Below, in pieces: positions 11,570 to 24,214 of a stretch of DNA of 64,000 bases. Position numbers and translations under genes: made by a program. Within the stretch, counting starts at the first letter, position 1. Each line of letters begins with the position of its first letter. A model generated the notes under the pieces. It saw nothing but the letters and a program-made list of their open reading frames with translations, made no database searches and was not told the origin of the DNA. This DNA is from Limosilactobacillus coleohominis 101-4-CHN. GTDB lineage: Bacteria > Bacillota > Bacilli > Lactobacillales > Lactobacillaceae. Location of the stretch: contig NZ_GG698803.1 in NCBI RefSeq assembly GCF_000161935.1, positions 268,888 to 332,887 on the forward strand, given 5' to 3'.

Positions 11570-12976
11570 ATGGTGAGATTAAAATTTGGGATTATGCTAA
11601 CTGATTTTTGGGCATGCTCTAGTTTGAAACAGAGAGTAGCTTGTGATTACTTGTTTAAATTAGTTAATCCTGATTATAATGTGGAGAATGGAGTTGCCAC
11701 AAAAATGAAGAACTGTCTTGCTTCAATACCTCGTGATATTACTGGCAATATTTTCTACATAGAAGAAGATGCCAGATTTATTCAAAATGTCAGAACAAAA
11801 ATTGTACCTTTAATAACGAAGCCTTTAGCATTTGTCGCTTTTTTTCTGAATTGCCTAAAAAAGGATAGCAGCTTGAATGATGATACACCTATCGGAAACA
11901 ACACAAAGAGGCATTATCTAAATGCTAGCTCTTTTGATTTAGCTCAAACCATAGCAGATTTTTTATTTTTCACAATTAGACAGAATGATAATGAAGATCA
12001 GGAGACGCACAGTTATATTAAAAGTCTGTCTAAAACGAAAATCGCTTCTTTTAACGTGGCAGGGTTATCGTTAACAGAGGCAAGACACCCATTAAATGAT
12101 GTTAAACTCACGTCTTCAAATAGAAATTTCGACTCCGTATTTGAGGAGATATGTGTGGGGAAACTTGACATTCCTAATCCTAATCATATCCGTGCTTTTA
12201 AACTAAGAAATAGTTTGTATGAAGAAGATTACACACAGGTAATTAGTTTGTTGCAAAATAATATTTGCAATTATGTATATTCTAGAGCTGAAATAGATCA
12301 ACTTGAAAGAAACATTAGCTTTGCAGACGTTCAACGTAAAACCTTATTAGCAGCTTCTCAATTAAATGTTGACAGTAATACTTTAGGTGATTTACTAAAT
12401 TATCTTTTTATTGAAAATGAAGAAAATGCACCTAAACTAATGAGCAAAATTGAATTTAATAATTATAAGAATGATTGTGATGGCGTTTATTTGAAGAAAA
12501 TTAACGATAAATATCAGATCGTTTTAGGCACTTCAAAAATATACCCATCGGTATACGATGGAATATCACATGCGGTAGAGAGAATATGTTCTTTAGTCTC
12601 TCAATCCTTTAACCCTTCTATATTGGTATCGGACTTCAACTTTATCAACAGGTTTCCCGTAGATGATTTAAAAGCCCTGAAGCGTATATTTATCCCAACA
12701 CAGCCGCAAGATGAACTTGAAGTTAATGGCTTCGGAATATTTTTAGGATACTCAATGAACTTATCATGTGATATTAATCTACTGTCTACCGAAAAGGTGC
12801 GGGAGATTGTCAATTTACAAATTAATAATGATTTAAAGGATGTTATTCAACAACTGAATATAGCAATAAGTGATAAAAATATTAAGCAATATTCATATTA
12901 TGTCTATTTATTGCCATTTAGGGATGTTACTGAAACAAGCAAAATGATAATGGAAAAGGTATTGGGAAAAAGATGA
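11570..12976 (+). CDS. hamA: HamA-like Hachiman defence protein (DUF1837), variant nuclease motif
   Basis: 468 residues. The C-terminal 270 match the HamA/DUF1837 layout: AFKLRNSLYEEDY and CNYVYSRAEID near 209-242, LGDLLNYLFIENEENAPKLMSK near 272-293, a DG at 304-305 leading to VLGTSKIY at 318-325, and GFGIFLGYSM and YYVYLLPFRD near the end. HamA is the nuclease effector held by the HamB helicase and released on DNA damage or phage attack. The family signature is G-E-x-K; here it reads G321-less-Glu, that is GTSK with T321 in the Glu position and K323 kept. About 190 N-terminal residues precede the family domain and are unrecognised. The hamB ATG overlaps its stop by 4 bases. The SD AGGTGAGG precedes the ATG. 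Confidence 0.8.
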   Translation: MVRLKFGIMLTDFWACSSLKQRVACDYLFKLVNPDYNVENGVATKMKNCLASIPRDITGNIFYIEEDARFIQNVRTKIVPLITKPLAFVAFFLNCLKKDSSLNDDTPIGNNTKRHYLNASSFDLAQTIADFLFFTIRQNDNEDQETHSYIKSLSKTKIASFNVAGLSLTEARHPLNDVKLTSSNRNFDSVFEEICVGKLDIPNPNHIRAFKLRNSLYEEDYTQVISLLQNNICNYVYSRAEIDQLERNISFADVQRKTLLAASQLNVDSNTLGDLLNYLFIENEENAPKLMSKIEFNNYKNDCDGVYLKKINDKYQIVLGTSKIYPSVYDGISHAVERICSLVSQSFNPSILVSDFNFINRFPVDDLKALKRIFIPTQPQDELEVNGFGIFLGYSMNLSCDINLLSTEKVREIVNLQINNDLKDVIQQLNIAISDKNIKQYSYYVYLLPFRDVTETSKMIMEKVLGKR

Positions 12977-15576
12977 AAACAACTACTAAAGCAGCAATGG
13001 AAGAATTTTTCGGGGATATTACTTCTAATAAATATTTAAAAGTTCTTTTTTCAAAACTTTTAGATGAGTATTCCAATAAAGTATTTGGTAAAAAACACCA
13101 ATTGGATTTAGTAACTAAAAATAATTTGATGAGGTTTGCAGACTTACTAGCACATTCAAGGATGCTGAAAGAATCCAATTTTCATCAAAATATTTCACAA
13201 CAAATTATTTTTATGTTGGAGTACTTATTTCCTGATGATATATCTGTCAAGTTTGTTAAGCAAAGAATTCAATCTACACTAAACAATTATTCTGTTCAAA
13301 ATAATGATCTACATACGGTTCCATCTGGAGATGCTTTGCTTAATTATTTAGCGAATACTTATAAAAAAGGGGAGTTACAAATACCAGGTTCTCATGATCA
13401 AACGTTTATAGGTGAGCAGAAAGCAGTCTATATTGATATGACCGAAAGTAACCTTAGTTTTTCCGCGCCTACTTCAATGGGGAAATCCTTTTTAGCTAGA
13501 ACATATATTAAGAATCAAATACTGACTAATAAAAATGGAAATTATGCATTTGTTGTTCCAACTAAAGCATTAATTAACGAAATTTCTAGCAAAATTATCA
13601 ATGATTTGGGTAATAATTTATCTCAAAATAGATATCGAGTTATTCGTTCAGTTAGCGAGTTGAATGAATACAGTATTGATGATGGATATCATTATGTTTT
13701 TGTGATGACTCCTGAAAGATTAATGTACTTACTAATTGCGTTTCCAAACATGGACTTGCCATTCGTTTTTATTGATGAAGCACAAAATATTTCTAAACAT
13801 GACGTTCGATCTGGGTTTTATTACAATTTAGTTGATATGTTGGAAGAAAGAAATTCTCGAATCTCGTTTGCTTCTCCTAACATACCCAATCCTGATATTT
13901 ATTTAGAGTTAATACGAGACAATAAAAAAAGTAAAAATGCTAGGAAAATAAAGTACTCACCGGTAGTTCAAGTCTCATATGTGGTAGATTTTACGGATAG
14001 TACTGTTCAGATTTATAACCCAGTAAGTAAACAATTAAAGCCACTAAAAAATATAGGTGAAGAAAGCTTATTTGATCTGATTGATTCTTTTTCTGATAAC
14101 TCGAATTGTGGAATTCAGAATTTGATTTATTGTAACAAAATTGATACAGCTATTGGATTAGCAGTTCAATATGCTGATAGCTTAGAAGATAAAAATGATT
14201 TGACATTGGACAAATTATCGTCAGATATAAAGAGTGAAATAAACGAGGATTATTATTTAGCTGATTTGGTAAAAAAAGGCGTAGCATATCATGTATCTTT
14301 TTTACCCAAAAACGTAAGACTAAGAATTGAAAAGGCGTACAGAGCAGGAAAAATAAAGAATTTATTCTCAACTAGTACTCTGATGGAAGGGGTTAATCTT
14401 CCGGCAGATAATTTGATTATTACCAGTAATAAGAAGGGGAATGCTATCTTAAGTACTGTTGATTTTAGAAATTTAGTAGGACGCACCGGTCGTTTAAAGC
14501 ATTCAATGATAGGAAATGTATTTTTAGCAATATTACCTGAATCATTTTCTGGAAGAGCTAATAAGAGAGACTATAAAAAATTACTAAAGGCGACTATAGA
14601 ACATCAAAGATTGAATACAGATCTTTTGACTAAAAAAGTTGTATTGCTGATAAAAAAAAGTTTGTTTGAGGGAGATCTTACACTGAAATTGCTTTTCAAT
14701 CTCTCTAATTGGACAAACTGGAAATACAAAACAGTTAGGAAATTTGTACTTCAATATTTAAATGATATTCAAAATAATAGACAGAGTATTGTTAGAAAAA
14801 AATTCCAGCAATTTATTGATCCTCAAGAGGAGCATGAAATACTAACTTGTTTACATAGTCGCTATAGCGAAAAATTTGATAATGATGTAAATATTTCAAC
14901 TGACCAAACTAGTAAGTTAAAACTGATGATTAAGAAAGGATTAAAATATCCCACATTCAATGAAAGTGGGCAGTTAAATTATCAAGAAGTATTAAGTTTT
15001 CTTGATCAGCTGGACTCAATATTTAATTGGCAACAGTATGAGAAAAGTAAAATCGGTAATGCGAACAAGCGTCGATGGTATGCAGTTATCTTAATTCAAT
15101 GGATTTCTGGATTAGGCTTGAGAAACATAATTAATAAAGCAATCGAATATAAACGTGAGAATCCTCATAATGCTATATATCGTAATCAAGAGTACTATGA
15201 TTTTGATGATTCTAAATCTCAAAAAAATATAATCATTAATGATACCTTATATGCTATACAAAACGTTCTGCTTTTTGATTTTGCTAGTTATTTCCTGAAA
15301 GTCTCCAAAGAAATGAAAAATTATTTTAATGTGCCGAGCCTAGATAATGATTGGTATGAATTCATTGAATATGGGACTCACGACGGGTTCCGGATTTGGT
15401 TACAAAAATGTGGTTATTCAAGAGAATCTGCTAACTATATTGAAAAACATCCAGAATTTTTTGATGTTGATGGCACATCATATCGATTGAGTAGTGATTT
15501 GGCAAATGTTAATGATATAAATCTTAGAGATGAAACTAGAGATATTATGTTCAACCATCCGGAAATTTTTGTTTAA
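12973..15576 (+). CDS. hamB: HamB-like superfamily 2 helicase of Hachiman-type system
   Basis: 867 residues. SF2 helicase core with motif I SAPTSMGKS at 164-172, Ia FVVPTKALINE, Ib MTPERLMYLL, motif II FIDEAQ at 266-271, motif III-like SFASPN, motif V STSTLMEGVNLPADN at 466-480 and motif VI LVGRTGR at 501-507. The order and the Ski2-like spacing fit HamB, which scans DNA and restrains HamA until it meets damaged or phage DNA. The long C-terminal 360 residues are helical and carry no motif I can name. Translationally coupled to hamA (ATGA). AT-rich with Lys/Asn-rich composition, unlike the flanking prophage, which supports horizontal acquisition. Confidence 0.85.
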   Translation: MKTTTKAAMEEFFGDITSNKYLKVLFSKLLDEYSNKVFGKKHQLDLVTKNNLMRFADLLAHSRMLKESNFHQNISQQIIFMLEYLFPDDISVKFVKQRIQSTLNNYSVQNNDLHTVPSGDALLNYLANTYKKGELQIPGSHDQTFIGEQKAVYIDMTESNLSFSAPTSMGKSFLARTYIKNQILTNKNGNYAFVVPTKALINEISSKIINDLGNNLSQNRYRVIRSVSELNEYSIDDGYHYVFVMTPERLMYLLIAFPNMDLPFVFIDEAQNISKHDVRSGFYYNLVDMLEERNSRISFASPNIPNPDIYLELIRDNKKSKNARKIKYSPVVQVSYVVDFTDSTVQIYNPVSKQLKPLKNIGEESLFDLIDSFSDNSNCGIQNLIYCNKIDTAIGLAVQYADSLEDKNDLTLDKLSSDIKSEINEDYYLADLVKKGVAYHVSFLPKNVRLRIEKAYRAGKIKNLFSTSTLMEGVNLPADNLIITSNKKGNAILSTVDFRNLVGRTGRLKHSMIGNVFLAILPESFSGRANKRDYKKLLKATIEHQRLNTDLLTKKVVLLIKKSLFEGDLTLKLLFNLSNWTNWKYKTVRKFVLQYLNDIQNNRQSIVRKKFQQFIDPQEEHEILTCLHSRYSEKFDNDVNISTDQTSKLKLMIKKGLKYPTFNESGQLNYQEVLSFLDQLDSIFNWQQYEKSKIGNANKRRWYAVILIQWISGLGLRNIINKAIEYKRENPHNAIYRNQEYYDFDDSKSQKNIIINDTLYAIQNVLLFDFASYFLKVSKEMKNYFNVPSLDNDWYEFIEYGTHDGFRIWLQKCGYSRESANYIEKHPEFFDVDGTSYRLSSDLANVNDINLRDETRDIMFNHPEIFV

Positions 15577-15737: not shown

Positions 15738-16787
15738 CTATATATGGGCATCTTGGGATGGATAATCAATGCCAGCAAATGTCTTCAAGATTGCTTCAAA
15801 GATAATACGCGCACCACGTACTGGTACAGCCATGCCTACCTGCTTCCTAACGCTTTCCTTGGAACCCATAAATTCAAAAGTATCTGGGAAAGTTTGCAAA
15901 CGAGCTTTTTCACGGTTAGTTAATGCTCGTGGCTCCGACCAGTGATACATGTGAGTTCCACCTCCGCCAGAACCGGTAACAGTATATGATGGTTTATCAG
16001 GTTCTAGTCGACGATAAATCTGACTAATCTTGGCTCCTTTAACATGTAATTTAAGTTTGTCAGGAATGTCGGCATTGAAGGCATTTTGCCCCGGCTTAAT
16101 ATACTTTAATCGTTCAACGACAGTTTTGGTTTGACGCGTGCGTTCATTGTTAAATGCATTTTCTGGAATTGGTGGATTTTCAATAGCATTTCTTGCACTG
16201 TTATCCACGTTTTTATACATTTCCGTAGAGGGGACTTTATAATGGTATTTGGATGCCAGGTCATTACGAATTCCTACTACAATAATCCGATGACGAGCTT
16301 GTGGAACGCCATAATCTTCGAATTTATAAAGGTTTGGAACAATTGTATAGCCAGCGTCCTTCATATCTGAAAGTATCTTTTGAAAAGCCTTGCCTTGATT
16401 TGTTGATTTTATGCCCCCTACATTTTCTGCAAGAAACCATTTAGGCTGATATATTTTCAACGCCTTGACACCATATGTGTAAAGAGGCCCATAAGTTCCG
16501 TTAAATCCCTTTTGCTTGCCCACAACTGAAAAGTCATTGCAGGGAAATCCAAATGCTAGTCCATCAATTGGTGTTAATTGTGTTAAATCAAATTTTCTAA
16601 CATCTTCACAATAGACAGATTCTGGATTTTCTGGACATATATTATGAATATAGGTTTCACATGTGTCTTTATCAAAGTCATTCGCCCATGCGTGAACAAT
16701 TTGATCACCGTTACCTATATCTGCTGTCTTGGCACCAAGGGCTAAACCGCCTGGACCACAAAATAATTCACCTAGTTTATACTTCAT
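15738..16787 (-). CDS. DNA (cytosine-5-)-methyltransferase
   Basis: 349 residues with all conserved C5-MTase motifs: I (LGELFCGPGGLALGAK, SAM binding, 5-20), IV (FGFPCNDFS with catalytic Cys83), VI (AENVGG, 120-125), VIII (QARHRIIVVG), a short target recognition region around 205-265 (YIKPGQNAF...), IX (REKARLQTFPD) and X (QVGMAVP). It modifies an unknown cytosine target and should protect host DNA from the PLD/Z1/Vsr genes encoded divergently. The XRE regulator gene upstream overlaps it by 11 bases, so the two are one operon. PCN in place of the more common PCQ is seen in several type II enzymes. Confidence 0.95.
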   Translation of the reverse strand: MKYKLGELFCGPGGLALGAKTADIGNGDQIVHAWANDFDKDTCETYIHNICPENPESVYCEDVRKFDLTQLTPIDGLAFGFPCNDFSVVGKQKGFNGTYGPLYTYGVKALKIYQPKWFLAENVGGIKSTNQGKAFQKILSDMKDAGYTIVPNLYKFEDYGVPQARHRIIVVGIRNDLASKYHYKVPSTEMYKNVDNSARNAIENPPIPENAFNNERTRQTKTVVERLKYIKPGQNAFNADIPDKLKLHVKGAKISQIYRRLEPDKPSYTVTGSGGGGTHMYHWSEPRALTNREKARLQTFPDTFEFMGSKESVRKQVGMAVPVRGARIIFEAILKTFAGIDYPSQDAHI

Positions 16788-17103
16788 TGTTCCATCTCTC
16801 TTTCGTTAACAAGTCAATAATTCTTTGTAAGCTGTCTATTTCTTCTTTATTCAAGAAGGACGTATGATTAAATGGCGTAGATTTATCTATATCCATGCCT
16901 GCTTCATTTAGCACATTAACAACATCTACGCCATAGCATTTGGATAGCTTGCAGATTACTGATATTGAGGGGTCGGTTATCTGATTATTTTCTAACTTAG
17001 AAAGCCGAGAATTAGTTATATTTGTTTGTTCACGAACATCGGCCATGCTCATATGCTTGGTGTTGCGAAGGCTTCTTAAATATTGACCTAATGATTCGCT
17101 CAT
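16777..17103 (-). CDS. XRE-family regulator, C-protein-like, of the R-M locus
   Basis: 108 residues with an N-terminal helix-turn-helix (LGQYLRSLRNTKHMSMADVREQTNITNSRLSKLENNQ), followed by LSKCYGVDVVNVLNEAG and a helical tail. Controller (C) proteins and XRE regulators beside methyltransferases delay expression of the restriction arm until DNA is methylated. It lies at the divergent promoter region (17104-17211) with the nuclease operon on the other side, ideal for controlling both. Its 3' end overlaps the methyltransferase start. The C-terminal 40 residues are longer than in minimal C proteins. Confidence 0.82.
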   Translation of the reverse strand: MSESLGQYLRSLRNTKHMSMADVREQTNITNSRLSKLENNQITDPSISVICKLSKCYGVDVVNVLNEAGMDIDKSTPFNHTSFLNKEEIDSLQRIIDLLTKERWNNEV

Positions 17104-17211
17104 ATGATACCTTCCTTACATTATTAATTGTCTATAATTTTAACATATTAGCTGCGATAAAGAAACGATTAATGAATATATTTTCGATTTCGCAGCAAAA
17201 AGGAGAAAGCT
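17104..17211. promoter_or_regulatory. Divergent promoter/operator region of the R-M locus
   Basis: 108 AT-rich bases separating the XRE/methyltransferase operon (minus) from the PLD nuclease/Z1/Vsr operon (plus). A TATAAT box is visible on the plus strand at 17131-17136, and AAAAAGGAG (17198-17206) is the SD of the nuclease gene. No clear C-box dyad stands out by eye. The regulator gene next to it makes this the likely operator. Confidence 0.45.
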
Positions 17212-18339
17212 ATGTCTATTCTATATACAAATGTCCCTCCACTTCGTACAGATAACACTAAAGATAACTTTCGTGATAAATTCTACGAATATATTAAACA
17301 AGCCGATAGTGTAGAAATTGCAACTGGATATGTTTCACAGGATTCGCTTGAAGATCTCGATAGGCTTATAGCTGAATACAATATCAGCCATATTAATCTG
17401 GTTATTGGCATGTACTTTATCGAAGGAATGCCCGAAAACATCTTTAACACGCTTATAAGAATGAATCATCGATGGAAAGAACGCGGTATCGGCGGAGTTA
17501 ATATAGTATGTACTTTCCGCTATCATGGCAAATGCTATCTTTTTTCACGTGATGGAAAAGACTTTGCCGGCATTGTTGGATCGGCTAACCTAGGAGCTAT
17601 TTCATTAAACGCTCAGACTCGCCGGCAATATGAGATGTCCATCAATTTAGAAGAACAGAGCAGCCTTCATGAGCTAAATGATCACATTGCAAAGCTTGAT
17701 AAGTCATGTTGCAAGCCAATTGACGCTGTTAAAGACAATATCCCATTAATTCGTCAAGAGAATGCCAAATTAAAAGATGTTGAACACGTCCAACGCATGA
17801 ATTCGGATGAAATTGCCACCTACGAGCGTCATTTAACTGGTACGACGATCGAAATTCCATTAAAGGTGCCAAAGGACAATAATGACCAGAAGTTTAGAGG
17901 ATCTAATATTAATGTTTGCTATGCAAAGGGTCGTAAACGTGAATGGTGGGAAACAGAGGTCGTTAACGGAAAGAAAATATATACTCTGCCAGGCTATCCC
18001 GAATATAAAAAACCATTCATGGTTGTCACTGACGATGGTTGGAAGTTTGAAGCATGGACATGCGGTGACCACAACAAGAACTTTTATTCCAAAGATGATC
18101 TTAAAATTATGGGTTACTGGTTAAAAGGCCGTCTTGTTGCTGCTGGTATCGTTAAACCTATAGATCATGTTGAAAATGATAAGGACTTCAAAGGCCTTAT
18201 TACCGAAAAAATGTTAGAACAGTATGGCAAGACTACCTTGAGTCTTACCAAAACTACTCAAAAGTCTAAAAACGAGCATGGAGAAGTACTAGATGTTTGG
18301 CTCCTGTCGTTCTTACCACACCAACTGAAAGAAGATTAG
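17212..18339 (+). CDS. PLD-family (NgoFVII-like) restriction endonuclease
   Basis: 375 residues. The N-terminal 190 form one phospholipase D-type nuclease domain: SVEIATGYVS, then FRYHGKCYLF with the HxK pair H105/K107, and FAGIVGSANLG (120-128) supplying the Ser/Asn of the active site. NgoFVII and BfiI restriction enzymes use this metal-independent fold, usually as dimers with one active site. The C-terminal part (GRKREWWETEVV...FMVVTDDGWKFEAWTCGDHNKNFYS) resembles the restriction-type DNA-recognition region annotated with NgoFVII. Followed 4 bases later by the Z1 gene, so cutting is probably tied to that ATPase. Confidence 0.82.
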   Translation: MSILYTNVPPLRTDNTKDNFRDKFYEYIKQADSVEIATGYVSQDSLEDLDRLIAEYNISHINLVIGMYFIEGMPENIFNTLIRMNHRWKERGIGGVNIVCTFRYHGKCYLFSRDGKDFAGIVGSANLGAISLNAQTRRQYEMSINLEEQSSLHELNDHIAKLDKSCCKPIDAVKDNIPLIRQENAKLKDVEHVQRMNSDEIATYERHLTGTTIEIPLKVPKDNNDQKFRGSNINVCYAKGRKREWWETEVVNGKKIYTLPGYPEYKKPFMVVTDDGWKFEAWTCGDHNKNFYSKDDLKIMGYWLKGRLVAAGIVKPIDHVENDKDFKGLITEKMLEQYGKTTLSLTKTTQKSKNEHGEVLDVWLLSFLPHQLKED

Positions 18340-18343
18340 CTAA

Positions 18344-20212
18344 ATGAGTTATCTGAACGATTACGTATCACATATCACTAATAGTGGAAACCCGCAATTT
18401 GCCAATTCTATTAAAGAAACTGCTGAAGAAGCCTATCAAAAAATTGCAAATAACTTTGATTACATGGGTGGCCGAAAAACCGGTCTATTATTTGGCAATA
18501 TTCAGTCTGGTAAAACAGGGCATATGTTCGGCATTATTTGCGCCGCGGCAGACGAAATGTTTCCGCTTTTTATTTTACTTACTACCGACAACGTCACTTT
18601 ACAGAAACAAACACTAGAGAGAATCCAAAACGACCTGCCTGATTTTTGCATTTGTGGTGAATATGACACTGAAAAATTCAATGAAAACAACCTGGCAAAA
18701 CCCACGGTAATTGTATTAAAAAAGAATTTTCATACACTTCATCAATGGTCCAATAACCTGAAATCTTCTGGTGTCGTCGCAGGAAATCCTTTATTTATTT
18801 TGGATGACGAGGCCGATGCTTCATCACTGAATACCCTTGTTAATAAGGATAAGCAATCCACTATTAATAAATATCTGGATGAGATTAATCAGCTTTCTAT
18901 TGGTTCGATTTACCTACAATCAACTGCAACACCCCAAGCCTTGTTATTACAAACTGCTGATAGTACCTGGCATCCAGATTTTGCGGTCTACTTTACTCCA
19001 GGGCAACAATATCTTGGTGGCAACTTCTTTTTCCCAGAAAATAAAGTTCCATCATGCATTCATTACATCGATGAAACACCAGATCCACTTGAAGAATCTG
19101 TGCTTCATCATTTGGTTGTTGCCGCTCAGATGTTTAACAGTGGTGATAAGGTATGCAACATGATGATCCATCCATCAGTCCGAGTTGCTAAACACCAAGA
19201 ATACGCTAATAAGGTAAAAAGAATCCTTAGCTCCTATCAAGAAAATAATAGCGACTTCAAAGCTAAATTTTCTAAAGAGTATGATGAAGTTGCCAAAGAG
19301 GCCAGCCTAACGACTAAGAATCAGCTTTTACAACTGGCTACTGATCTGCTTAATATTACAAACATCTACATGCTTAATGGAAAAGAGCACGTTGAAGCTG
19401 AAGATTACGCTACTGGTAGCAATATTGTGATCGGTGGAAATACTCTTGGACGTGGGGTCACGTTTCCTAAGTTGCAAACAATTTACTATGTACGCTCTTC
19501 TAAGCGCCCGCAGGCTGATACCATGTGGCAACATAGTAGAATGTTTGGTTATGACCGACATGCTAATTTAATGGCTGTTTATATCAGTAAAGAACTTTAT
19601 AAGCTCTTTGAAGACATCAACTCTGTTAATAATGCGATTGTTCAACAGATTGACAGCAGTGATGGTGACCTTTCTCAAATAACTATTTCATTACCAGAAG
19701 GATTATCACCGACGCGTGCCAATGTACTTGATAATCGTTTCGTTCACATATTTGTCGGCGGCAAAAATTACTTTCCGTTTAATCCATCTAACAAGTCGTT
19801 TGATGAAATCACTAAAATTGTCAATATTCTGGATCCAATTGAAGCACATAAACCATCAGAACAGGTTAATTTAGCATTGTTTATCCGTATTTTGGAAAAT
19901 ATTGACGGTGGTGCTGACTTTAATGTCGGTGACTACATAACCGCTTTGCAGGATATGTTAAAAGATCATAGAAGCCAAGGAGTTATAATTATTCGTCGAA
20001 ATCGTGACATTACTCAGGGAACAGGTGCATTGCTTTCTCCAAATGATCTTGCTTTAGGAAATCAAATTACCGACATGCCAGTTATGACACTTTACGAAGT
20101 GGTTGGTAAAGGATGGAAGTCAGATAAAATCTGGGTTCCTAATATTAAGTTCCCAGTCAATAAGGCTATTTATCATGTTACGGAAAAGAAGGCAGACTAT
20201 GGAGACAACTGA
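18344..20212 (+). CDS. Z1 domain ATPase/helicase-like protein of R-M locus
   Basis: 622 residues. Walker A LLFGNIQSGKTGHM (48-61), Walker B FILDDEADAS (151-160), STATPQALLLQ (motif III-like), and the Z1 signature VIGGNTLGRGVTFPKLQTIYYV followed by QADTMWQHSRMFGYDR, equivalent to SF2 motifs V and VI. Z1 proteins occur with cytosine methyltransferases, Vsr-like nucleases and other restriction-type proteins, and are thought to translocate on DNA or remodel the nuclease complex. It lies in an operon with PLD nuclease and Vsr genes. Start ATG follows the nuclease stop by 4 bases; SD is weak (GAAAGAAGATT). Confidence 0.87.
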   Translation: MSYLNDYVSHITNSGNPQFANSIKETAEEAYQKIANNFDYMGGRKTGLLFGNIQSGKTGHMFGIICAAADEMFPLFILLTTDNVTLQKQTLERIQNDLPDFCICGEYDTEKFNENNLAKPTVIVLKKNFHTLHQWSNNLKSSGVVAGNPLFILDDEADASSLNTLVNKDKQSTINKYLDEINQLSIGSIYLQSTATPQALLLQTADSTWHPDFAVYFTPGQQYLGGNFFFPENKVPSCIHYIDETPDPLEESVLHHLVVAAQMFNSGDKVCNMMIHPSVRVAKHQEYANKVKRILSSYQENNSDFKAKFSKEYDEVAKEASLTTKNQLLQLATDLLNITNIYMLNGKEHVEAEDYATGSNIVIGGNTLGRGVTFPKLQTIYYVRSSKRPQADTMWQHSRMFGYDRHANLMAVYISKELYKLFEDINSVNNAIVQQIDSSDGDLSQITISLPEGLSPTRANVLDNRFVHIFVGGKNYFPFNPSNKSFDEITKIVNILDPIEAHKPSEQVNLALFIRILENIDGGADFNVGDYITALQDMLKDHRSQGVIIIRRNRDITQGTGALLSPNDLALGNQITDMPVMTLYEVVGKGWKSDKIWVPNIKFPVNKAIYHVTEKKADYGDN

Positions 20213-20627
20213 ATATCGTTCCAAAATGATGTCCAAAATCCGCTCAACCGGTGGAAAGGCGGAAACCATTCTTGGTAAAGCAATCTGGCATAAGGGAATT
20301 CGATATTTCCGCAACTATAAAAAACTTCCCGGTAAGCCAGATCTGGCAATTACCAAATACAAAATTGCAGTATTTGTAGATGGTGAATATTGGCATGGCT
20401 ATAATTATGATGAAATCAAGTCAGGTAAAAGAGTGCATCGTAATCGACAATACTGGCTTAAGAAAATAAATTATAATATGGAACACGACAGGAAAGTTAA
20501 CGATGAGCTTAAAAAAATGGGATGGACAGTGATTCGTTTTTGGGAAAGACATCAAGTGTTCAAAGATTTAAATTATTGTACGGATACGATTCTAAATGCT
20601 ATAAAATCTAAGGAAGGGAACAAATAA
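20199..20627 (+). CDS. vsr: Vsr-fold endonuclease
   Basis: 142 residues from the ATG at 20199, which overlaps the Z1 stop by 14 bases; an earlier start would lie deep in Z1. It opens with TEYRSKMMSKIRSTGGKAE, the Vsr N-terminus, and holds GKPDLAI, IAVFVDGEYWHG and VIRFWERH. Classical Vsr nicks T:G mismatches left by cytosine-5 methylation, which fits the methyltransferase in this locus. E. coli Vsr has zinc-binding Cys in GCFWHHHHC and WEC; here those positions read GEYWHGY and WER, so the zinc site is gone. It may be mismatch repair or may have become a restriction nuclease for the Z1 complex. Confidence 0.88.
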   Translation: METTEYRSKMMSKIRSTGGKAETILGKAIWHKGIRYFRNYKKLPGKPDLAITKYKIAVFVDGEYWHGYNYDEIKSGKRVHRNRQYWLKKINYNMEHDRKVNDELKKMGWTVIRFWERHQVFKDLNYCTDTILNAIKSKEGNK

Positions 20628-21172: not shown

Positions 21173-22438
21173 GTGAATCAGCTGATTGTACTAGGAAATG
21201 GTTTCGATATTCATTGTGGTTTAAAGAGTAGTTATTCAGATTTCTTTTTTGATAGATTTAGAAGCTTATTTTGTGAAGAAAAAGAAAGCACAACGTGCAT
21301 TGAAGATTTAGAAGATAATTTATCTGAAAGAAGACGAAGCATTTTATCATTTATTTCGAATTTAAGAAATCAACTTAACTTTGAGCCTAACGATAATAAT
21401 GATTGTGATTATTTTAAACGTTACAAGGAAACCTATTTTTCAGAAAATAATGACATCACGAGATGGGATTTATTCTTTCTTTTTGCGGATGCTTGTGTGG
21501 ATAAGAGTGTAAATAAATATGAATGGCAAGATGTTGAATCTCTAATCTTTGATGTTATTTCTATTGCGTTAAATGCAAAGAGTACTTACAAAATGCACTA
21601 TGTTAAGGATGTCCAAATTGGCCCATATGAAGATGAAGGTATTAAGTTATTTTCAAAGATAGTCTATTATTTATCTTTTACAGGGCACAATACGGATGAA
21701 GAAATTGCTGCTGAACTTTTAAGAGAATTAAAAAAATTTGAACATAGCTTTGCTATATATATTACAAACCAAATCGACTTGAATCAGACTCATAGTGGGT
21801 ACGTTGATAATGCAATTAAGTTATACAAAGATATTTCTAAATACAATCGGTCTAATAAGGGTTCCGTAAGTGACCAAATTGATGTCCTAAATTTTAATTA
21901 TTCATTAGATGATAGGTTTAAGGATATTTTGGATAGAGAAATAGATGATAATAGATTAGAGACCTGGTCTAATATTCATGGAATTGCTCATCATGAGGAA
22001 ACACCATATTATCCAGCTCCTATTTTTGGCATTGATAGTCATGGTATAGTTTCACGAAAAGGCCAATCAGATCTTAGAATTTCATTTACTAAAGCCTATA
22101 GAGTTATTGAGAATGAGATAAATGAAATGAGAAGTTCATCAGGGTATGCTGGAAAAGATCTGATTACAATTTATTGTCATTCCCTGAGTGCAGCAGATTA
22201 TTCATATTTTGAAGCTATTTTTGACGAGAATGATCTTTATTACTCTAATTGTAAGATAGAATACTATTATTATCCTGGCGAGAATGATCAGGAAAAGTTA
22301 ATCAAGCGTCAGGAAGCTATAACTCATTTGTATAATTTACTTACGAATTATGGTGATTCGTTGAGCGAAACACATGGTGATAACATTGTAAATAAATTAA
22401 ATTTGGAAAATCGGCTTAGTGTAATCCCAAGTGAATAA
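21173..22438 (+). CDS. AbiH family abortive infection protein
   Basis: 421 residues with a GTG start and GGAGG 8 bases upstream. The N-terminus LIVLGNGFDIHCGLKSSYSDF is the AbiH signature, a nucleotide-binding-like GNGFD loop. A second family element is the mid-protein VLNFNYSLDDRF...NIHG (around 240-265) and LITIYCHSLSAADYSYF near the C-terminus. AbiH of Lactococcus causes infected cells to die before phage burst; the biochemical activity is unknown. It stands alone between gene-poor stretches, so probably a single-gene system with its own promoter. Confidence 0.87.
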   Translation: MNQLIVLGNGFDIHCGLKSSYSDFFFDRFRSLFCEEKESTTCIEDLEDNLSERRRSILSFISNLRNQLNFEPNDNNDCDYFKRYKETYFSENNDITRWDLFFLFADACVDKSVNKYEWQDVESLIFDVISIALNAKSTYKMHYVKDVQIGPYEDEGIKLFSKIVYYLSFTGHNTDEEIAAELLRELKKFEHSFAIYITNQIDLNQTHSGYVDNAIKLYKDISKYNRSNKGSVSDQIDVLNFNYSLDDRFKDILDREIDDNRLETWSNIHGIAHHEETPYYPAPIFGIDSHGIVSRKGQSDLRISFTKAYRVIENEINEMRSSSGYAGKDLITIYCHSLSAADYSYFEAIFDENDLYYSNCKIEYYYYPGENDQEKLIKRQEAITHLYNLLTNYGDSLSETHGDNIVNKLNLENRLSVIPSE

Positions 22439-22740
22439 TCTGCTAATTTCATATTTTTCCACAAACGCTGTAATTTTATTTTGAGGGTTATGTGTTCCCG
22501 CAAACCGGTATAAATTGGAAGTCTGCTATTTATCGCGATAATAGGTCAAAAATCGTTATTACGATAGCGAGTTAACAAACACAATGTTTTGAAACAAACG
22601 AAGCAAAAAGCCTAACGTGACGGTTGTTTGAAAATGTGTAATTGACCAACTGAGCTCGTGGCATGTTGAGAGCGTTACTTTGCTGGAACGCACATAAAAA
22701 TAGGCGATGAATGTCGGTGTGACGGCATCCTTGATAGATG

Positions 22741-22788
22741 AAAAGTGTACTAATTCTCGTTTTATTGATTGGGGATTAGTACACTTTT
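22741..22788. terminator. 14-bp inverted repeat, bidirectional terminator-like
   Basis: AAAAGTGTACTAAT (22741-22754) pairs perfectly with ATTAGTACACTTTT (22775-22788) around a 20-base loop, giving an A run on one side and a T run on the other. Either a terminator after AbiH or a structured part of a small RNA upstream of the HEPN gene. Confidence 0.55.
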
Positions 22789-22801
22789 TGCTTATTGTAC
22801 T

Positions 22802-22890
22802 AGAGTGTCGAGTGGACAGCGTGCTGGATTTTCGGGTCGAGTGTGCAAGTGTCCGTTTTGGAGAGTTGAGTGGATAGGTGTAATATTGAA
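22802..22890 (+). repeat. Three degenerate ~30-base tandem repeats
   Basis: Units begin near 22802, 22831 and 22861. The shared core is GTCGAGTG at 22806-22813 and 22835-22842 and GTTGAGTG at 22865-22872, spaced 29 and 30 bases apart, with weaker similarity around it (GAGxGTxGAGTGGAxAG in units 1 and 3). They lie 110-200 bases upstream of the HEPN gene. Confidence 0.45.
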
Positions 22891-22999: not shown

Positions 23000-24214
23000 G
23001 TGAGCAAAAAGAAAGATAAAATTCTCGAAAATTTTAATAAATTACTTGAAGCATTAAAGCAAAATCAGCAAAACGGTAATGTAATGTACTTCAAAAAAGA
23101 GGAATATTTATATTGTCCGTCAAAGAGCTTATATTTTAGCCAGGATAATTTGAAACAGTACAATGATATATGCGATAACATTTTACGTAAATTAGAAGTA
23201 AATAATTTGCCCGGCTACAGCATTATAGATGTAAGAAAGATGACAAGTAACTGGCTTAGTGATCTATTGTCTAAGGACCATTTGAATATAACAAAAAGCA
23301 TATTTCGGGAGAAGTTAAAACTTTGGCGACAAGAAATGCAGACGAACAGGTCGTATATCTTTTTAGTGTCTGGCATTAAAATTCCTCAACAGCCTATCCA
23401 AATTGATTCAACGGATTATTTTACTAACACTAAAGGTATCAAAAATAAACTTCATTTGAGTCATAGCAATCATTTGGAAAAAATACTAAGTAAAGATAAT
23501 GCTATTCTTATTGTTACTGTTCAAGGTGCACAGAATGATATGACCTATGAAGTAGCAAAAAAGAAAGCTAATCGAATAATAGGTCTCGTAAACTTAATAT
23601 ATGGTAACAAGTTTCCGATTAAGGTATACCCCATTAACGAAGTGATAGTTCATAACGATATTGATGAATATTATGGATTTGTGGATGGTAAAGGTGCATT
23701 TGGTAGGTCAAGAGTGAAAGATCCTATACCTGAAATTCAATTAAATGACATATCAAATACGTTACATAACTTTGAGTTCTTAATAAATGTGCAAAAAGAA
23801 CAAGCATTGACGAAGTTACAAGAAAAGGCATGTACAGCTATAGACTGGATGAGCTTGGCGGATTTAAGTAATATACCAATGTCTTTTTTACAAGCTATGA
23901 TAGCTTTAGAAACGATTCTTGAAATAAAAAGCAATAATATCTCCATTGTCAGCCAGATAAGTATGTCTATCTATACCCTTTTAGGCAAAAACATAGAAGA
24001 TAAGAAAAAATTAAATACATTTATGAAGCGAAGTTATGATGTGAGGTCTAATATTGTTCATAACGGACGTGCGGAAGTTGCTGATGATATGTACTTTGAA
24101 CTATGCAAGATTATATTCCAACTAATTTCTAAAATAGGAACAGACAAAGAACTAACGAAGTTAAAAGATACAGAAGATCTTTGGAAATATGTGGAGTTAC
24201 GGCTAATGCAGTAA
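23000..24214 (+). CDS. HEPN (Apea-like) domain protein, putative ribonuclease effector
   Basis: 404 residues, GTG start with AAAGGGAG upstream. The C-terminal quarter is a HEPN-like four-helix region: FLQAMIALETILE (297-309), KLNTFMKRSYDVRSNIVHNGRAEV with R349 and H354 forming the R-x4-H ribonuclease motif, and MYFELCKIIFQLI. The N-terminal 250 residues are mixed and unrecognised, with IVTVQGAQNDMTYEVAKKKANRIIGLVNLIYG in the middle. HEPN proteins in defence islands cut RNA to stop phage growth. No antitoxin gene is adjacent, so control may lie in the upstream leader or in the N-terminal part. Function is inferred from the motif and the island. Confidence 0.68.
   Translation: MSKKKDKILENFNKLLEALKQNQQNGNVMYFKKEEYLYCPSKSLYFSQDNLKQYNDICDNILRKLEVNNLPGYSIIDVRKMTSNWLSDLLSKDHLNITKSIFREKLKLWRQEMQTNRSYIFLVSGIKIPQQPIQIDSTDYFTNTKGIKNKLHLSHSNHLEKILSKDNAILIVTVQGAQNDMTYEVAKKKANRIIGLVNLIYGNKFPIKVYPINEVIVHNDIDEYYGFVDGKGAFGRSRVKDPIPEIQLNDISNTLHNFEFLINVQKEQALTKLQEKACTAIDWMSLADLSNIPMSFLQAMIALETILEIKSNNISIVSQISMSIYTLLGKNIEDKKKLNTFMKRSYDVRSNIVHNGRAEVADDMYFELCKIIFQLISKIGTDKELTKLKDTEDLWKYVELRLMQ

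Follow-up and report, generated by a model that had tools for sequence, protein, structure and literature searches.

CglI and NgoAVII are described as restriction-modification (RM) systems of three genes, M, R and N, in which R cleaves DNA only together with N (later named H) and ATP (PMC4267653). In CglI, the R and N subunits assemble as R2N2 and about 170 ATP are used per second per monomer, and translocation with communication between complexes along the DNA was proposed in PMC5737866. M.CglI and M.NgoAVII recognise GCSGC. The homologous system BceSIV of Bacillus cereus, compared here by its description only, also has a PLD nuclease and an ATPase, requires ATP or GTP, and recognises GCWGC (PMC4267653). 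A locus with these genes and two more, coding for a small regulator (X) and a Vsr-type endonuclease (V), is situated on a stretch of 64,000 nucleotides from Limosilactobacillus coleohominis 101-4-CHN (contig NZ_GG698803.1, positions 268,888 to 332,887 of the forward strand), which is referred to as the window. Its M, R and H genes represent an ATP-dependent RM system of the CglI/NgoAVII type, as judged from homology. This gene set is already known, and the new part is a conserved regulatory design upstream of X and M: no description of this three-box operator, or of X and V together with CglI-type systems, was found in the searched literature (open-licence only).

The five genes, their order and their overlaps were all found as originally predicted, with X and M on the minus strand and R, H, and V divergent on the plus strand:

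15738-16787, minus strand: M, C5-cytosine DNA methyltransferase of 349 amino acids (aa) (Pfam DNA_methylase, E 2e-77; PADLOC MTase_II PDLC03378, 1.6e-117)
16777-17103, minus strand: X, XRE-family helix-turn-helix (HTH) regulator of 108 aa, heading a presumed operon with M (Pfam HTH_3, 5.8e-10)
17212-18339, plus strand: R, PLD-family nuclease with C-terminal B3-like DNA-binding domain (RE_NgoFVII, PF09565, E 1e-34; RE_NgoFVII_C, PF20731, E 3e-21; HGK at residues 105-107)
18344-20212, plus strand: H, DEAD-Z1 helicase-like ATPase subunit of 622 aa (Pfam Z1, 1.1e-26; PADLOC Helicase_II, 1.7e-217, full length)
20199-20627, plus strand: V, Vsr-type endonuclease of 142 aa from ATG (TIGR00632 vsr, above cut-off)

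X and M overlap by 11 bases, R and H are separated by 4 bases, and H and V overlap by 14 bases. M, R, and H all match Type II models in PADLOC. When the window was compared with the related locus L096, the ratio of nonsynonymous to synonymous substitution rates (dN/dS) was 0.05 for X, 0.01 for M, 0.06 for R, 0.03 for H, and 0.05 for V; by these low values, which are rough because dS is high (1.5-2.5), all five genes look to be under selection.

R matched the solved R.NgoAVII (4rct) over residues 16-343 with E 4e-40. The AlphaFold model of R (predicted local distance difference test, pLDDT, 90.8; built from 46 aligned sequences) had the same structure as its best fold match (E 5.6e-31), with a template modelling score by query (TMq) of only 0.46 across both domains, and its B3 domain fitted the B3-DNA complexes 4rdm and 4rd5 with a score by target (TMt) of about 0.9. 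The HxK motif is present in all 85 first-position R proteins of relatives. The C-terminus of H matched 6f1s, the structure of the C-terminal domain of the H subunit of CglI (sequence E 3e-19), and the fold matches of the H model (pLDDT 84.8) were the HsdR motor of EcoR124I (4beb) and 6f1s. H carries the Walker A motif GNIQSGKT and DDEAD at residues 154-158; among 42 aligned H proteins QSGKT, D154, and E156 are invariant and D155 is kept in at least 90%. D155 and E156 align with D150 and E151 of NgoAVII, the mutation of which abolished activity (PMC4267653). M is 66-74% identical to M of the X-bearing relatives beyond the four closest loci, and 40% identical to M of NgoAVII.

The window locus therefore belongs to the CglI/NgoAVII kind by homology of R and H, by fold, and by its kept catalytic motifs: PLD domain with HxK and B3-like domain in R, Z1 and superfamily 2 helicase (SF2) motifs with the C-terminal domain in H, and an adjoining C5-methyltransferase. 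As in CglI and NgoAVII, M, R, and H stand together and the catalytic HxK and DE residues are retained. The NgoAVII locus of N. gonorrhoeae has the same M-R-H set, but there the three genes run in one direction with neither X nor V, while the window has a divergent X-M pair and an added V. Likewise, CglI is described with three genes (PMC4267653), and the window locus has five. The described type is known for a GCSGC or GCNGC-type target of M and R, an R2H2 complex, and ATP-dependent cleavage at a fixed distance. The Z1/MORC systems of Iyer 2008 (PMC2292703) pair a GHKL ATPase (MORC or paraMORC) with a helicase; no GHKL family match was obtained among nine window proteins scanned (Pfam, E 0.01).

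The cutting mechanism of R and H is inferred from the literature on CglI and NgoAVII. M would methylate a GCNGC-type site, most likely GCWGC; R would bind the unmethylated site through its B3 domain; and H would hydrolyse nucleoside triphosphate (NTP), probably translocate, and license cleavage close to that site by the PLD active centre of an R dimer. The original prediction of NTP-driven restriction, with the Z1 protein gating the PLD cutter, agrees with the mechanism published for CglI and NgoAVII (PMC4267653), whose subunits are homologous to R and H. Its view of the gene set as uncharacterised is not supported, as M-R-H is an already known three-gene system.

Genome contigs were scanned for H, which confirmed at least 352 relatives, and the best 80 were kept; IMG/VR contributed 20 loci. 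Since these genome loci were selected as the best 80 among at least 352 matches to H, the frequencies among relatives are not those of a random sample. The 106 loci mapped formed 86 clusters at 97% H identity, 61 of them with at least 3.5 kb on both sides (well-flanked). Genes in relatives were called by phmmer using the window proteins; the X start is probably miscalled in L025 and L042, both scored as misses. Within Lactobacillaceae, H was present at E <= 1e-20 in 6 of 396 genomes, the source genome among them. All 61 well-flanked clusters have R, 60 have M, 40 have V (in one case a remnant), 34 have X, and 26 have a second PLD protein; X, M, R, and V occur all together in 28. The original prediction had been made to depend on the PLD, Z1, and Vsr genes occurring together beyond this genome, and they do recur, R in 61/61 and V in 40/61. 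R lies within 7 kb of H in 61/61 and immediately upstream of it in 60/61 (R of L082 is shortened). The M-R-H set spans Clostridia, Bacilli, Bifidobacterium, and others.

According to M identity to the window M, the well-flanked clusters were divided into three clades, one further cluster being without detected M. Clade A (at least 66%) comprises 39 clusters, of which 36 have X beside M or joined to it in a fusion, 31 have V, and 26 have the second PLD protein. Clade B (57-62%) has 5 clusters, none with X and two with V. Clade C (less than 45%, NgoAVII included) has 16, with X in none and V in 7. Two Listeria phage records carry M at 57.5% identity.

The upstream region of X and M in the window contains these features:

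17192-17196, no strand assigned: operator box A, GCTGC on the X-M strand, common to the window, L016, L017, and L096
17160-17165, minus strand: proposed -35 TTTCTT of the X-M promoter, weak, matched to the proposed -10
17151-17155, no strand assigned: operator box C, GCAGC on the X-M strand, in the proposed promoter spacer, kept in the window, L016, L017, and L096
17137-17142, minus strand: proposed -10 box TAAAAT for X-M, with a TG where an extended -10 would have it; 29 aligned relatives have their conserved -10 at the equivalent position

In the window, L016, L017, and L096 the two boxes are common to an X/R intergenic stretch that otherwise drifts, and GCTGCG...CGCAGC at the window spacing occurs at one place only in the source genome of 1.73 Mb. 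A consensus promoter scan of the window did not report the proposed -10.

The regions upstream of X-M in the window and in 40 clusters (41 in all) contain 118 GCWGC, against a mean of 21.6 and a maximum of 35 in 200 dinucleotide shuffles. At least two GCWGC are present in 39 of the 41 regions (4.3 expected), and the inverted pair GCTGC-N5-7-GCAGC in 32 (31 with N6), against 0.035 expected. A third GCAGC follows 25-28 bases on in 29 regions, between an invariant TTG (29/29) and a TATAAT-like box, and so sits in the predicted promoter spacer of X-M. Upstream of R there is little excess, with 22 GCWGC in 86 regions against 12.6 by base composition.

The operator accompanies X. Its strict form is present in 29/39 clusters of clade A, 0/5 of clade B, and 0/16 of clade C. 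In a set of 66 clusters with a looser left flank limit, X-M adjacency and the operator pair were both present in 31 and both missing in 26, and discordant in 5 and 4 (Fisher p 2e-9). Three of the four pairs without detected X are X-M fusions with the operator upstream, in one frame of 461-467 aa (L027:12590-13984, L028:13471-14856, L106:12308-13711), and the fourth, L065, has an X-like coding stretch just before M. Among the five with X and without the pair, L096 and L017 show the two-box form of the window, two boxes are present in L029 and L032, and none is in place in L042. The five clade B loci L002, L081, L082, L091, and L115, which are without X, share an element resembling a palindrome (around GGCATATGC) ahead of M, and GCNGC does not occur in the 190 bases before their M. 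In L006, at about 2650-2770, a run of GCGTT-type pentamer repeats is found just upstream of the NgoAVII M gene.

The strict pattern was also searched for on its own. Of 15 matches in viral_contigs, 14 were on contigs already found by the H protein search, and the 15th, L247, was seen in a short piece only. In 398 Bacillota genomes there was one match, beside a 67% identical M, and the reversed pattern gave none. A looser pattern without promoter elements gave at least 120 stretches and was not used. The pattern scans are a measure of specificity, not of sensitivity. We propose from this arrangement that X autoregulates M through the X-M operator. X would bind the GCTGC/GCAGC boxes, including the one in the spacer between -35 and -10, and in this way control its own X-M promoter.

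Several described modes of regulation resemble this arrangement in part. Four designs are distinguished in PMC12707154: promoter methylation (in CfrBI, and only for M in LlaDII and AhdI), regulatory methyltransferases fused to an HTH, antisense RNA, and C proteins. Features of three of them are seen in the X-M clade. Like X, the C proteins of Type II systems are small HTH proteins with operators in their own promoter and autogenous feedback, but they share the promoter with R (PMC12707154), while X in the window heads the M operon, its operator core reads GCWGC, and X can be fused to M. The C-protein-like regulator of the original prediction is thus half confirmed: X is a small XRE protein, and its own promoter has operator-like repeats, of which the window keeps two half-boxes. 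It is paired with M, in three relatives fused to it, and not with R; in the window, X and R share one intergenic stretch, and X may act on R there. In CfrBI, LlaDII, and AhdI, methylation in the M promoter controls M (PMC12707154), and the M promoter of the window has GCWGC boxes, putative target sites of M. AhdI also has a C protein, by the title of a reference, so promoter methylation and a C protein already meet in one system. The passages on these three systems in PMC12707154 describe no reader protein on the methylation sites and no conserved three-box array. The regulatory methyltransferases with N-terminal HTH, such as Ecl18kI and SsoII, have HTH and methyltransferase fused, as in L027, L028, and L106; here, however, the HTH protein is mostly separate, and the probable target sequence makes up the operator. 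For RptR, neither an XRE protein nor an inverted repeat is mentioned in the available passages of PMC12255303.

The M target is GCNGC-type by family and most likely GCWGC. REBASE neighbours of a GCNGC methylase include GCSGC, GCWGC, and GCAGC, and also GCNNGC, GCGC, CCGG, and GGCC (PMC10734518). GCWGC methylases are reported from Enterococcus faecalis, Clostridium thermocellum, and Listeria, and as M.BatI (PMC4894674, PMC6791906, PMC10059834, PMC8936443); these were not linked to M. The phi3T methyltransferase was dropped as a specificity yardstick (31.5% identity over 87%). Since CglI-type relatives recognise GCSGC or GCWGC, the operator boxes are probably methylation sites of M. X would then be a reader of the methylation state, and its binding may depend on methylation of the boxes by M, as they read GCWGC. 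That X is a methylation sensor, with an operator built of the system's own target, reading the protection given by M and setting M expression, is put forward tentatively, at somewhat less than even odds.

The strongest competing explanation, which comes close to even odds, takes the boxes as plain X operators: their GCWGC identity would be coincidental, methylation would play no part, and X would be a Cro-like autorepressor or activator of X-M. Conservation reaching the promoter elements (TTG in 29/29) fits it, as does the lack of GCWGC depletion. It also fits that five examined loci of clade B, with related M, have another palindrome-like element; since that element differs and GCNGC is missing there, the CglI-type family does not need its own target at the M promoter in clade B. 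Against plain operators, a 5-base core would equal the reported target of a related system by chance about once in a few hundred (a rough estimate), and control of M by promoter methylation is known in CfrBI, LlaDII, and AhdI (PMC12707154).

An unlikely explanation is that the boxes are bound by M, or by the B3 domain of R, instead of X. GCWGC would be the target of both M and R, and X forms the N-terminal part of M in three relatives, as in regulatory methyltransferases; but clades B and C have M and R and no such array, and the repeat pair tracks X.

We hold the whole reading, a CglI/NgoAVII-type RM system with a regulator X binding GCWGC boxes and with V as a mismatch-repair accessory, at a probability of roughly 80%. 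The following points weigh against it. The window operator consists of boxes A and C only, the middle box B of relatives being degenerate, and the -35 of its X-M promoter is weak. The strict operator is missing in 10/39 clade A clusters, and an adjacent or fused X was not detected in 3/39. Because the pattern was drawn from these loci, part of its frequency in clade A follows from the way it was made: the Bacillota genome match is identical to L059, already in the pattern-building set, 12 of the 14 viral contigs with H fall into pattern-building clusters, and only L098 and L106, each with an X-M fusion, are new. The putative GCWGC target of the clade A M is taken from related systems. Site depletion, considered as a support for the GCWGC target, was negative: the observed/expected ratio of GCWGC was 1.07 in 300 kb of the source genome, which leaves no footprint of long-term restriction, and 0.94 (200 kb), 0.86 (100 kb), and 0.89 (100 kb) in three genomes of the same genus.

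The longer open reading frame (ORF) of V, from TTG at 20103, scored 113.4 bits with TIGR00632 vsr (cut-off 97.85), and V aligned with 1cw0 at E 1.4e-13. The stretch GCFWHHHHC of E. coli Vsr reads GEYWHGYNY in V, with both cysteines missing; the DGE-Y/F-WHGY form occurs in 4 of 65 V proteins of relatives. Vsr endonucleases that accompany C5-methylases usually repair T:G mismatches. V would accordingly repair the mismatches arising from deaminated methylated cytosine, with restriction working without it. The third restriction enzyme of the original prediction would instead make V a working part of the complex, a nickase completing the cut with R and H, which is very improbable. V does stand on the same strand after R-H, overlapping H by 14 bases in the window, and follows H directly in 22 of the 61 clusters. 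However, its position varies (9 lie after one further gene, 4 are upstream in the same orientation, and 5 have the opposite orientation), and it is absent from 21 and, like X, from the NgoAVII locus. In Lactobacillus bombicola (L017), V is a pseudogene interrupted by stop codons and shifts of frame, while the reading frames of X, M, R, and H are open, so these four can be kept without V. By this comparison V looks like a dispensable accessory of mismatch repair more than a third cutter.

The 86 clusters have 33 second PLD-B3 proteins of about 320 aa, most of them encoded between H and either V or M (for example L045:11875-12831, L022:11871-12842, L034:11855-12799); none was found at the window locus. 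Both NgoFVII Pfam domains were found in each of five scanned. HxK is intact in only 5 of the 33 (14 have HxN), compared with 85/85 in the first R, which suggests a degenerate nuclease-like partner. A DUF262-domain gene adjoins M-R-H or stands one gene off in L002 (7926-9713), L003 (7927-9708), and L004 (8651-10492), which are two plasmids of lactic acid bacteria and one Mucilaginibacter plasmid.

The locus is situated in a variable hotspot. The flanks at about 11.3 kb (around 11344) and 22.4-22.9 kb (22450-22870) recur in L096 and five further genomes of the same genus (L297, L298, L299, L300, L301) with different cargo between them; in blastn (1e-8), L096 is the only one of these six to share the RM genes, and L299 has the AbiH stretch in common with the window. 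Immediate neighbours of the RM locus, at 11570-15576, are the Hachiman genes HamA (PF08878, 1.4e-42) and HamB helicase (full-length PADLOC match). An AbiH-family protein is coded at 21173-22438 (PF14253, 6e-10), and an AbiH-looking ORF also follows V in L096. A 404-aa ORF at 23000-24214 had no match at E 0.01 in Pfam, PADLOC, and NCBIfam. That the locus is itself a chance run of separate defence genes, for which such an island with Hachiman, AbiH, and other cargo between similar flanks might speak, was rejected with near certainty by R directly upstream of H in 60/61 and M near in 60/61 across Clostridia, Bacilli, Bifidobacterium, and others.

With this locus and its relatives, the few characterised ATP-dependent PLD restriction enzymes are extended to a large clade, mostly of Bacillota, with the regulator in nearly all members and often with an added repair enzyme and a second, degenerate PLD subunit. 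The interest is in the operator more than in the gene set. As a sequence tag it leads to the system, as in 14 of the 15 viral_contigs matches, and it predicts the target of the methylase. If X is a methylation sensor, promoter methylation, HTH-fused methyltransferases, and C proteins, which a 2025 review treats as distinct designs, would come together in a single family, where the separate and fused forms of X are the intermediates. Mobile restriction systems must protect a new host before cutting, and a regulator that binds at the very sites of protection would sense directly whether the genome is safe.

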